Shown here piece by piece: positions 15,498-19,228 of a stretch of DNA of 64,000 bases. Every line of letters begins with the position of its first letter. Position 1 is the stretch's first letter. The notes beneath the pieces are model-generated. The model did not search any database, was not told where the DNA came from, and saw only the letters and a program-made list of their open reading frames with translations. The position numbers and the translations under genes were made by a program. Source of the stretch: Bacteroidales bacterium (lineage in GTDB: Bacteria; Bacteroidota; Bacteroidia; Bacteroidales; PXBB01); NCBI GenBank assembly GCA_028698995.1, contig JAQVVM010000016.1, positions 1 through 64,000 of the forward strand. The letters run 5' to 3'.

Positions 15498-17066
15498 ATG
15501 AATATGAGAAATTTTAAACTGATTTTTACCATTCTAATAATTCTAAATACAGATGGTTTATTTGCGCAACAGGGAAACTTAGATATTACTTTTGGTACAG
15601 GTGGTAAAGTAACTACTGACTTTAATGGAGTCGATGATGGAGTCAATTCTATAGCAGTACAAAGTGATGGAAAAATTGTAGCTACTGGAATTTCAGGATA
15701 TTATCCATATAATTGGATCCAAATGGGTCTAGCAAGATATAATATTGATGGGACATTAGATAGCAGTTTCGCTTTAAATGGCAAATATGAACTACCTAGT
15801 AATCCCAATTTTTCATATGGAAATAGTGTAGCTATACAAACTGATGGTAAAATTGTTGTAACAGGAAATCAAACTGCGTATGGCTATTTTTTAATGCGGT
15901 TTAATACCAATGGCACATTAGACAATGGGTTTGGAACAAGTGGTATAATATATGATAACTATGTTACGGGTAGCAATAATAGTTATAGTTCATCATTAGT
16001 GATACAACCTGACCAAAAAATTATTATTATTGGTACTGTAATAACCCATCCTGACGATAGTATTTATTTCGCTTTAGCTCGTTATAATACTGATGGTAGC
16101 TTAGATAATAGCTTTGGCGCAAATGGCCATATTCATACGCGTATAAATGTTAATGATTGGGGTTATTCAGTTGCATTACAGTCTGATGGAAAAATTCTCG
16201 TTGCTGGCACTTCAGGTAATACTCCAAATTATGATTTCGCATTAGCCCGTTACAATACAAATGGTACTTTGGATAATACTTTCGGTATAGGTGGTAAATT
16301 AACTACTGCAATTGGCATAGATAAAGAAGAAGCATTATCAGTTGCTACACAATCAAATGGTAAAATAGTATTAGCAGGATATTCATTCAATGGCACAAAT
16401 GATGACTTCGCTTTAGTTCGATATAATCTAGATGGTTCTTTAGATAACAGTTTTGGAACAGGTGGCAAATTGACCACTGACTTTTTTAATGGTAAAGATC
16501 GAGCACTTTCTGTTACCATTCAACCCGATGGAAAAATATTAGCAGCTGGTAGCTCTTATGACATTTCGAATACCGACTTTGCTTTAGTTCGGTATAATAC
16601 TGACGGCACATTGGATACCAACTTTGGAATGGGCGGTAAATTAACTACCGACTTTTATAATGGCAATGATGGAGCTTCTTCTTTAGCTATACAACCCGAT
16701 GGTAAAATAGTATTAGCAGGAAGTGCCTATAACGGTACATATAGAGATTTTGCTTTAGCCCGATATGTATCAGGATTAGTAATAGGAATCATTGATTTCT
16801 CTAATATAAAAAATGAAATTTTAATTTATCCCAATCCAATTACACAATCTGCTACTTTGGAATACACATTAAATACCTCAGAAAAAATTTCTCTATATCT
16901 AATGGATATACAAGGTAAAACAATAAAGACTTTTGTTGAAAATGAAAATCAAGAATCGGGTAAGCATGAACAAAATATTATATTTCCTACAGACCTAGTG
17001 TCAGGTTGCTATTTTCTAATTATATCATCAGCAAATGGTCGGGTAAAAATAAAAATAATTAAGTAA
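15498..17066 (+). CDS. delta-60-repeat secreted protein with T9SS sorting domain
   Basis: A 522-residue protein: signal peptide (ending DGLFAQ), then about seven copies of the delta-60 repeat of roughly 50-55 residues, each reading like LARYNTDGTLDNSFG followed by AIQPDGKIVLAG, and a C-terminal type IX sorting domain (IYPNPITQSATLEY ... GCYFLIISSANGRVKIKIIK). The repeats probably fold as a beta-propeller, by analogy with the family. The product is expected to cross the outer membrane by T9SS and be attached or released. Two Met codons (1 and 3) are possible starts. No enzyme motif is seen. Confidence 0.88.
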   Translation: MNMRNFKLIFTILIILNTDGLFAQQGNLDITFGTGGKVTTDFNGVDDGVNSIAVQSDGKIVATGISGYYPYNWIQMGLARYNIDGTLDSSFALNGKYELPSNPNFSYGNSVAIQTDGKIVVTGNQTAYGYFLMRFNTNGTLDNGFGTSGIIYDNYVTGSNNSYSSSLVIQPDQKIIIIGTVITHPDDSIYFALARYNTDGSLDNSFGANGHIHTRINVNDWGYSVALQSDGKILVAGTSGNTPNYDFALARYNTNGTLDNTFGIGGKLTTAIGIDKEEALSVATQSNGKIVLAGYSFNGTNDDFALVRYNLDGSLDNSFGTGGKLTTDFFNGKDRALSVTIQPDGKILAAGSSYDISNTDFALVRYNTDGTLDTNFGMGGKLTTDFYNGNDGASSLAIQPDGKIVLAGSAYNGTYRDFALARYVSGLVIGIIDFSNIKNEILIYPNPITQSATLEYTLNTSEKISLYLMDIQGKTIKTFVENENQESGKHEQNIIFPTDLVSGCYFLIISSANGRVKIKIIK

Positions 17067-17371
17067 AACTGGTTTTAATTTAGTGGATGGCTCTCCTATC
17101 TTCCGATAGCAGAGTGCACCCCTCACACCACTGTACCCCGACATTTTAAAAATGAAGTGACAGGCTTCCGAATCACGTACCTGCCAGTTGGCAGGCTGGT
17201 ACAGCGGTTATACTAAAAATTATACCTTTGTATTGTGGTATCTTTTAAGCAAACCCATTTATCTGAATAAAAGACGAAATCATGCCTATGTGTTTGCAAC
17301 AGATATAATCAGAAAAGGCAATAAAAAATCGAAGATTCGGCAAAACCAAAGCAAAGCTTTAGTGTCAAAGC

Positions 17372-17961
17372 AAAGTAACAAGAAATAAAAAATCTTTTTT
17401 TCTAATCCATTTATGGAAGCGCCTTATGGGTAGGTTTTGATACCACGGTTTTGTCATGGAATTTGCATTGCTTCGCTGCAATTTCACACGCCAAAACCAT
17501 CCCCCCAATCTTTATCGCCACGGGTTGGAACCCCTGGCTATTAACATTGTTCCCCGCTGGGGAACTTTGGGTTCATCACTGTAATAATTGCACGCCAGAA
17601 CCAATAATCTTATTTATTATACCACGTGTTTCGCTTCGCTTCAGCCGTGGCAACAAATTTAGCAGTTCTCCGAACTGCTTTTTAGCACACTACAAATCTA
17701 AAAAGACAGAAAGAAGCATTTGGCATTCACGTTTACGAAGCGCGAAAACGGCCTTTTAAAAATTTGCTTAAAAATTGAGGGTTTCATTACACAACATAAA
17801 AATCATTTTCAGGCAATTAAAGCAACCAACGAGTGAGGGTGTTGTATCTAAATTCAACAAAGATTTCATCCCGAACGGCTTTGGTTGCGCCGGTAATGAA
17901 AACCGACTATTTTAGCAAATTTTTAAGCAGCCTTGATTTTTGAGTTACTTTGGATCAAGCC
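17372..17961. repeat. repeat unit A (longest)
   Basis: Carries the GGTTTTG/CAAAACC hairpin, a degraded GCCACGGGTT palindrome, GTTCCCC-gct-GGGGAAC (17549-17565), then about 130 extra bases absent from units B and C, then the large hairpin element and the GTTACTTTGG stem-loop. Confidence 0.8.
17756..17926. repeat. large nested hairpin element, copy 1 (MITE-like)
   Basis: Perfect 12-base outer arms TTAAAAATTTGC and GCAAATTTTTAA enclose GGTTTCATTAC/GTAATGAAAACC, then GCAACCAA/TTGGTTGC, all in register. This gives a hairpin of about 170 bases. No coding potential. Confidence 0.75.
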
Positions 17962-17969
17962 AAAGTAAC
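17944..17969. repeat. stem-loop GTTACTTTGG/CCAAAGTAAC, copy 1
   Basis: Perfect 10-base arms around ATCAAG, at the junction of units A and B. Confidence 0.75.
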
Positions 17970-18442
17970 AAGAAATAAAAAATCTTTTATTCTAATCCAT
18001 TTATGGAAGCGCCTTATGGGTAGGTTTTGATACCACGGTTTTGTCATGGAATTTGCATGTTTTGCGGCAAATTCACACGCCAAAACCATCCCCCAAATCC
18101 TTATAGCCACGGGTTGGAACCCGTGGCTATTAACATTGTTCCCCGCTGGGGAACTTTGGTTTCATTACTGCAATAATTGCACGCCAAAACATGAATCATT
18201 TAGCGCACATGTTTACGAAGCGCGAGAACGGCCTTTTAAAAATTTGCGTTAAAATGGGGGGTTTCATTACACATCTAGAAAATCATTTTTTAGGTAATTA
18301 AAGCAACCAACGAGTGAGGGTGTTGTATCTAAATTCAACAAAGATTTCATCCCGAACGGCTTTGGTTGCGCCGGTAATGAAATCCGATGATTTTAGCAAA
18401 TTTTTAAGCAGCCTTGATTTTTGAGTTACTTTGGATCAAGCC
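17962..18442. repeat. repeat unit B
   Basis: A 481-base unit with all hairpins intact: GAATTTGC/GCAAATTC nested in GGTTTTG/CAAAACC, the 13-base-arm palindrome ATAGCCACGGGTT (18103-18130), the GTTCCCC/GGGGAAC hairpin, the large hairpin element and the GTTACTTTGG stem-loop. Confidence 0.8.
18236..18407. repeat. large nested hairpin element, copy 2 (MITE-like)
   Basis: The same outer arms TTAAAAATTTGC/GCAAATTTTTAA and inner arms as copy 1, and nearly the same central sequence. It differs mainly in the left loop (acatctagaa against acaacataaa). Confidence 0.75.
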
Positions 18443-18450
18443 AAAGTAAC
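18425..18450. repeat. stem-loop GTTACTTTGG/CCAAAGTAAC, copy 2
   Basis: Identical to copy 1, at the junction of units B and C. Confidence 0.75.
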
Positions 18451-18801
18451 AAGAAATAAAAAAATAACAGCTCTCACTTCTTGCCGGCAAACTCCGATAC
18501 ATTTTTGAAACACTCACTTATGCTCCGGTTTTGTCATGGAATTTGCATGCTTTGCGGCAAATTCACACGCCAAAACCACCCCCCAATCCTTATAGCCACG
18601 GGTTGGAACCCGTGGCTATTAACATTGTTCCCCTCTGGGGAACTTTGGGTTCATCACTGTAATAATTGCACGCCAAAACATGAATCATTTAGCGCACATG
18701 TTTACGAAGACCGAGAACGGCCTTTTAAAAATTTGAGTTACTTTACTCACTAAACTTCTATTTTATAGGTGTTCGTGAAAGCAAAGCTTTAGTGTCAAGG
18801 C
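18443..18801. repeat. repeat unit C (lacks the large hairpin element)
   Basis: A 359-base unit with the perfect ATAGCCACGGGTT palindrome (18592-18619). After TTTTAAAAATTTG it joins directly to AGTTACTTT, so the roughly 170-base hairpin is missing at the same place where units A and B have it. Confidence 0.75.
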
Positions 18802-18838
18802 AAAGTAACAAGAAATTAAAAAAATCAATGTTTCTCTG

Positions 18839-19228
18839 CTATTTCTTGGTTATAACCAAATCAGTAATATCAAATGTAAAATCACTGCTTTTTAACTGTT
18901 CGTTTGTAAATTCACCCGGCTCAAAAACAAGACCGGCCATTGCTCCTTTTTTTGTTTTTCGGGGTTTAATACATAATTCAACAGTTTCTGATTCTGCGTT
19001 CAATATTGACTGCCAAAAGAAAGTCAAAGTAAATTTTACATGAATGGCTTCAGATGTTTTATTTTTAATTTGCAAAACCAATTGAAGGGGGCTGTCTTTA
19101 TTAAAAAACCGAGATCTTTTCCAACGGTATGAAGCCTCCACCTCATCGGAGTTACTAAAAACCGTAAACGATCTTTGTCCAAACATGTTCAGACTAAGAA
19201 GCAAAGCGATAAGAATTAAGAGTCTCAT
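18839..19228 (-). CDS. small exported protein, unknown function
   Basis: A 129-residue protein with signal peptide MRLLILIALLLSLNMFGQ. The mature part alternates strands (LQLVLQIKNKTSEAIHVKFTLTFFW) in a way that suggests an immunoglobulin-like or beta-sandwich fold; no catalytic motif or named family is recognised. Its stop codon lies 23 bases beyond the repeat block. The gene stands 73 bases after the cyclophilin gene in the same direction and could be read through from it. Confidence 0.65.
   Translation of the reverse strand: MRLLILIALLLSLNMFGQRSFTVFSNSDEVEASYRWKRSRFFNKDSPLQLVLQIKNKTSEAIHVKFTLTFFWQSILNAESETVELCIKPRKTKKGAMAGLVFEPGEFTNEQLKSSDFTFDITDLVITKK

Follow-up and report, generated by a model that had tools for sequence, protein, structure and literature searches.

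The block at 17348-18822 of the window (the whole stretch of 64,000 nucleotides that was analyzed, from a Bacteroidales bacterium) is a noncoding array of approximately 2.5 tandem units, measuring 590 bp, 481 bp and, in the truncated third, 362 bp. We consider it likely, with a probability of roughly two in three, that this block arose by local tandem multiplication of a composite, non-autonomous mobile repeat whose core, module Y, would be a transcribed RNA spread by MITEs. The tandem array, the dispersal of its modules in the host genome, the covarying structure of Y and the presence of its relatives throughout the phylum were all observed directly, and in one genus the elements that carry Y have inverted ends and target duplications.

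Organization of the array

The units start in register after positions 17387, 17977 and 18458, and each is ordered as module X, which contains hairpins H1, H2 and H3, followed by module Y of approximately 250 nt. Units 1 and 2 are 97% identical over 177 nt, and units 2 and 3 are 93% identical over 169 nt. All modules lie on the + strand. In unit 1, a spacer S between the end of Y and the next X (17388-17437, recurring in contigs C24, C68, C75, C87 and C95) precedes H1 (GGTTTTG/CAAAACC, 17446-17499), H2 (the CCACGGGTT palindrome with one arm mismatch, 17512-17550) and H3 (GTTCCCC/GGGGAAC, 17546-17589), and a complete Y1 follows at 17726-17978 with a score of 290.5 bits against covariance model R1. 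The second spacer S (17978-18027) leads into X2 at 18036-18178 (H1 18036-18088, H2 18100-18139, H3 18135-18178) and into a complete Y2 at 18206-18459, which scored 295.5 bits. The third unit retains X3 at 18526-18667 (H1 18526-18578, H2 18589-18628, H3 18624-18667), and its Y3 (18695-18820, 34 bits) is reduced to the 5' end, with the core lost, joined to a T variant of the terminal hairpin at 18737-18820.

The original prediction of a tandem array of multi-hairpin units at 17348-18816 was correct, with three in-register units and shared blocks that are 93-97% identical. It also described one fixed hairpin series for all three units; this holds for H1, H2 (the ATAGCCACGGGTT palindrome) and H3, but only units 1 and 2 contain the large nested hairpin and the GTTACTTTGG stem-loop in full. 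Direct repeats were said to frame the block, and the copies at 17348-17386 and 18778-18816 do match at 38 of 39 positions. They derive, however, from the terminal hairpin of the repeat itself, of which they form the 3' arm: the first lies in a partial T arm (17348-17389) and the second within Y3. Since the 39-mer recurs with 1-2 mismatches at other loci, in contigs C75 and C95, the 39-base repeats belong to the unit, and a target-site duplication was ruled out.

The array sits between converging genes, one on the + strand at 15498-17066, which encodes a DUF5122 propeller that has a type IX secretion tail, and one on the - strand at 18839-19228. No gene explains the block, as had been noted, and the sole open reading frame of at least 100 amino acids inside it (17451-17759) had no match in Pfam. 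A separate 171-bp tandem repeat occurs at 16357-16766, within the coding sequence of the propeller gene upstream.

Structure and strand of the Y module

Y is a nested hairpin that ends in CTTGAN-Tn-GTTNCTTTTG-NTCAAG-CAAAAGNAAC, and its six-base loop forms further pairs upstream. This 3' pseudoknot motif occupies 17932-17969 in Y1 (CTTGAT 17932-17937, stem-loop 17944-17969, loop ATCAAG 17954-17959) and 18413-18450 in Y2 (CTTGAT 18413-18418, stem-loop 18425-18450, loop ATCAAG 18435-18440). The alignment of 27 Y copies, taken from three genera, supported a nested structure in which 24 of the 58 pairs show compensatory changes. When the pseudoknot was added, 98.7% of cells paired and 25 pairs were changed on both sides, compared to 9.6 pairs in shuffled alignments, and none of 500 shuffles attained 25. 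Sliding the partner by 1-3 columns lowered pairing to 35-54%. Compensatory changes are thus found beyond chance, as in a structured non-coding RNA.

Both overlapping helices of the terminal motif covary, the hairpin itself included. The loop pattern TTTTGNNTCAAGNCAAAA leaves the complementary test bases free. Of 83 distinct sequences drawn from many genomes, 80 had a free base after CTTGA that was complementary to the one preceding TCAAG, compared to 40.9 expected. Because there is no spacer nucleotide between the two 3' strands, a relaxed H-type pseudoknot holding both helices is impossible, and the helices would have to adopt a kissing-type geometry or form in alternation. The motif would bring the T-rich linker alongside a stem strand rich in A, an arrangement found in the triple-helix pseudoknots by which the 3' ends of RNAs are protected.

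The two strands of Y are not equivalent. On the + strand there were 21 G-U cells compared to 4 A-C cells, and the region 18218-18457 folded as RNA with -74.1 kcal/mol (z -5.5) on the + strand and -58.7 kcal/mol (z -4.1) on the - strand. The excess of G-U over A-C together with the better + strand fold indicates that selection seemingly acts on one strand. Such selection is most simply read as acting on RNA, and single-stranded DNA is the alternative.

The repeats might instead be plain palindromic DNA of the ERIC or BOX kind, whose structure, if it has any importance, would act as a hairpin in DNA or as a substrate for a transposase, and which makes no RNA. Y partly resembles its own reverse complement, with 33.9 and 27.7 bits on the - strand, and its sites are intergenic and tolerant, both of which would suit plain DNA repeats. 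We nevertheless regard them as unlikely, given the 21 to 4 ratio of G-U to A-C on one strand, the conservation and covariation of loop sequences and of the pseudoknot motif outside the long palindrome, and the separation of the MITE terminal inverted repeats from Y.

These findings are most consistent with Y being a structured element of one strand, most likely a transcribed RNA, in which the nested stem would be closed beside a 3' pseudoknot formed when the six-base loop of the hairpin pairs with the upstream CTTGAN, the T-rich linker joining the two. Such a structure may serve the element's own upkeep by providing a stable, exonuclease-resistant 3' end, perhaps with a bound protein. That Y would be a transcribed, stable RNA serving the element's own persistence is proposed with moderate confidence.

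Dispersal of the modules and their mobile carriers

The 1491-bp block had approximately 78 matches in its own 4.47-Mb assembly, and the H2 palindrome CCACGGGTTNNAACCCGTGG was present in 46 copies (at most 3 mismatches) compared to 2 for the reversed control in the same genome. Copy counts in the host genome are lower bounds because several contigs end inside the repeat. Y was found alone in contigs C17, C28, C51, C54, C111, C113 and C117, X alone in C1, C27, C104, C117 and others, and X repeated without Y in C68; serial X-Y units were also mapped, and a relative of another genus (G002) has the same X-then-Y order. X may be a second, REP-like hairpin cluster that accompanies Y in this bacterial family. 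In genome G001 (locus L071 on C99), a palindrome CCTGCCTGCCGGCAGGCAGG lies where a Y copy has its terminal hairpin, which gives the impression of one repeat inserted into another.

Relatives of Y were sought with a covariance model built from the 27 sequences of three genera. Of the 149 genomes of the order, 43 contained such relatives, many of them with E below 1e-10, and within the window the array and its antisense were the sole sequences to exceed 9 bits. Outside the family, the best matches reached approximately 100-110 bits and retain the entire architecture with greatly diverged sequences, and nearly all of them share the terminal motif CTTGAN-T(4-6)-..GTTNCTTTTGN-NTCAAG-NCAAAAGNAAC; copies in genomes G070 and G146 have the hairpin with a changed loop. 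The loop pattern TTTTGNNTCAAGNCAAAA occurred in 48 of 198 Bacteroidota genomes with up to 55 copies each, and the reversed control gave 0-2 matches per genome. Among plasmids, pHALHY01 of Haliscomenobacter hydrossis DSM 1100 matched the Y model at E 3e-11 (NC_015511.1:26-234, - strand) and was the only match found; phage and viral collections gave none.

Same-strand, noncoding Y arrays also occur in unrelated genomes. As the copies in G405, G362, G389 and G374 share one orientation and lie 300-500 bp apart, an integron-like cassette array with attC sites was considered, and it was rejected because the units stand back to back with no consistent open reading frame between them. The identity of neighboring units, 93-97% here and near-identical in the unrelated G389 and G374 arrays, fits ordinary tandem duplication after insertion, by which Y, once inserted, would multiply locally.

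In the genus of G311, G492 and G493, Y lies inside an element of 476-486 bp with inverted ends AACTGAsTATCCGC. These elements are flanked by 6-bp AT-rich target duplications that were perfect in 11 of 19, with a mean match of 0.82 compared to 0.49 with shuffled flanks. They are non-coding, multi-copy and short, and by their sequence features we classify them as MITEs. A longer, autonomous element with these inverted ends and a target duplication was not found in 2.0 Mb of G311. On contig C1 of G311 (1396178-1396587) there is a shorter MITE of 425 bp that shares the inverted ends, is flanked by a perfect 6-bp target duplication and is possibly an internally deleted derivative.

In the host genome, two solo-Y elements have other inverted ends, CCTGACTTCGACAATGCRTCACC, which are shared with a relative's copy and read CCTGACTTCGACAATGC in the host elements. 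No clear target duplication was seen at the host-genome copies, solo-Y elements included, and no inverted ends of the solo-Y or MITE kind surround the array in the window. The copies of G108 have yet other ends, AGCTACCGTGTACCCACA. As the ends differ among carriers, the fold is what they have in common and the carriers are different. Y would spread through Bacteroidota genomes as cargo of MITE-type transposons, mobilized in trans by a DDE-type transposase, and the host-genome copies probably moved likewise. The end of an IS-like element at positions 1-126 of the window (also in contigs C24, C40, C100 and C107), with terminal sequence CTCCTGACTTCGACACTGGGTCACC and C-terminal peptide TIYKVKATSEAGVVSHIILITEEQKYLSNLFQFG, has termini that resemble the solo-Y ends, which makes it a candidate helper. 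All five contigs break at this end and the body of the element is absent from the assembly, so that it is known from the 126-bp fragment alone; its 34-amino-acid peptide had no match in plasmids, relatives or Pfam.

The original prediction of a non-autonomous mobile family expanded in place was borne out by the approximately 78 genome matches, by X and Y occurring also alone and by the MITE relatives in another genus, and the unit is not unique to this site. Its assignment to a REP or BIME family moved by a REP-associated tyrosine transposase (RAYT) appears very unlikely. The short palindrome CCACGGGTTNNAACCCGTGG with its 46 copies and the five Y1_Tnp genes of the host genome would be in keeping with such a family. 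However, no significant X or Y match lies beside any of the five genes, the RAYT-like ones are flanked by other palindromes, the foot of the array's palindrome reads CCTTATAGCCACGGG and so has no GTAG/CGTC tag, the unit measures 480-590 bp, and its main module is a strand-specific structure of approximately 250 nt. The relatives, moreover, leave 6-bp target duplications, which Y1 transposition is not known to do.

The RAYT-like host genes (L001-L004) are four in number and have their own short flanking palindromes (e.g., GACCTCGGAGAGGTC and CTCTGAAAGAGC), which differ from those in the array; the copy at L004 is seemingly interrupted by other repeat sequence. At L005 (G000:C26:24515-27874, - strand), a Y1_Tnp (IS200-like) domain was found by Pfam embedded in frame between the methylase segments of an Eco57I/MmeI-like restriction-methylase open reading frame of at least 1114 amino acids.

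A guide of the omega-RNA type, with Y as the RNA of a TnpB/IscB-class transposon nuclease and the solo copies as non-autonomous elements, would account for a multi-copy, transposon-borne and structured module of approximately 250-400 nt with a pseudoknot motif. We judge it highly improbable: no match to HEARO, group I and II introns or any other family of Rfam 15 was obtained at the gathering score or at E up to 1, no associated gene was noticed beside the copies (whose neighbors lack systematic annotation), and the carrier is bounded by inverted ends with target duplications rather than by ends of the IS200/IS605 type. A rather unlikely further reading is that Y is a phylum-wide mobile pseudoknotted RNA acquired separately by different transposons for help in trans, as a guide, a transposition cofactor or a maintenance factor. 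If true, this would be an RNA gene spreading selfishly by hitching on MITEs.

The sites of insertion were biased. In G311, 12 of 24 element-bearing intergenic regions were convergent, compared to 162 of 899 (18%) of the others, and in the host genome, by mechanical calls of open reading frames, 11 of approximately 25 blocks with two neighbors lay between converging genes and 1 between diverging genes. Y would settle mostly near gene 3' ends. This strong bias to convergent sites near stop codons could mean that Y protects or terminates the mRNA of the upstream gene, but the bias is also expected from insertion tolerance, co-directional sites showed no orientation preference (6 same, 6 opposite), and no T-run follows the terminal hairpin. 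The lack of orientation coupling argues against a role of Y in the neighbor's mRNA, and such a gene-end function seems to us quite unlikely. Insertion near stop codons fits tolerance of a mobile element that carries Y.

Relation to known repeats and structured RNAs

No prior description was found in the open-access papers searched, subscription journals lying outside that scope; the Y family is apparently undescribed, although a motif as common as this may have been remarked on before. Small noncoding repeats are usually seen as decayed transposons and their interior is disregarded, whereas here the interior is the conserved part. The same compensated fold across differing ends, in many copies per genome, points to selection on an RNA or a single strand. 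The CTTGAN..NTCAAG pseudoknot motif provides a searchable signature by which the function of the repeat becomes testable in culturable Bacteroidota.

ERIC, RU and BOX, the last likewise a small modular intergenic repeat type, are known from narrow lineages, whereas the Y domain spans the phylum and has a conserved pseudoknot motif. The likeness to ERIC and RU lies in their being modular, folding intergenic repeats of 100-500 bp (PMC2229807, PMC2759123). The BrickBuilt MITE of Porphyromonas gingivalis is similarly non-coding and multi-copy, with inverted ends and internal direct repeats predicted to fold (PMC4596501). BrickBuilt, however, owes its folding to a minisatellite, and from copy to copy its target duplications vary in length and sequence (PMC4596501), whereas Y is a fixed, covarying, RNA-like domain that recurs throughout the phylum in elements with different ends. 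With REP/BIME and REPIN sequences and their RAYTs the array shares a high-copy palindrome, in X, and modules that form intergenic mosaics (PMC2817692, PMC3116915, PMC3733652), but it has neither a cognate RAYT nor the GTAG/CGTC tag, its structure is large and strand-specific, and its relatives show inverted ends and target duplications. HEARO/omega-RNA, GOLLD, ROOL and OLE are, like the proposed Y RNA, long structured non-coding RNAs whose function is obscure or linked to mobile elements (PMC12286853); Y differs from them in having no Rfam match and no associated gene found, and in occurring in up to dozens of dispersed copies and in tandem arrays. Neither MITEs nor structured RNAs are new as such, but a conserved, pseudoknot-bearing domain carried throughout the phylum on MITEs with different ends had no counterpart in Rfam or in the open-access literature searched.
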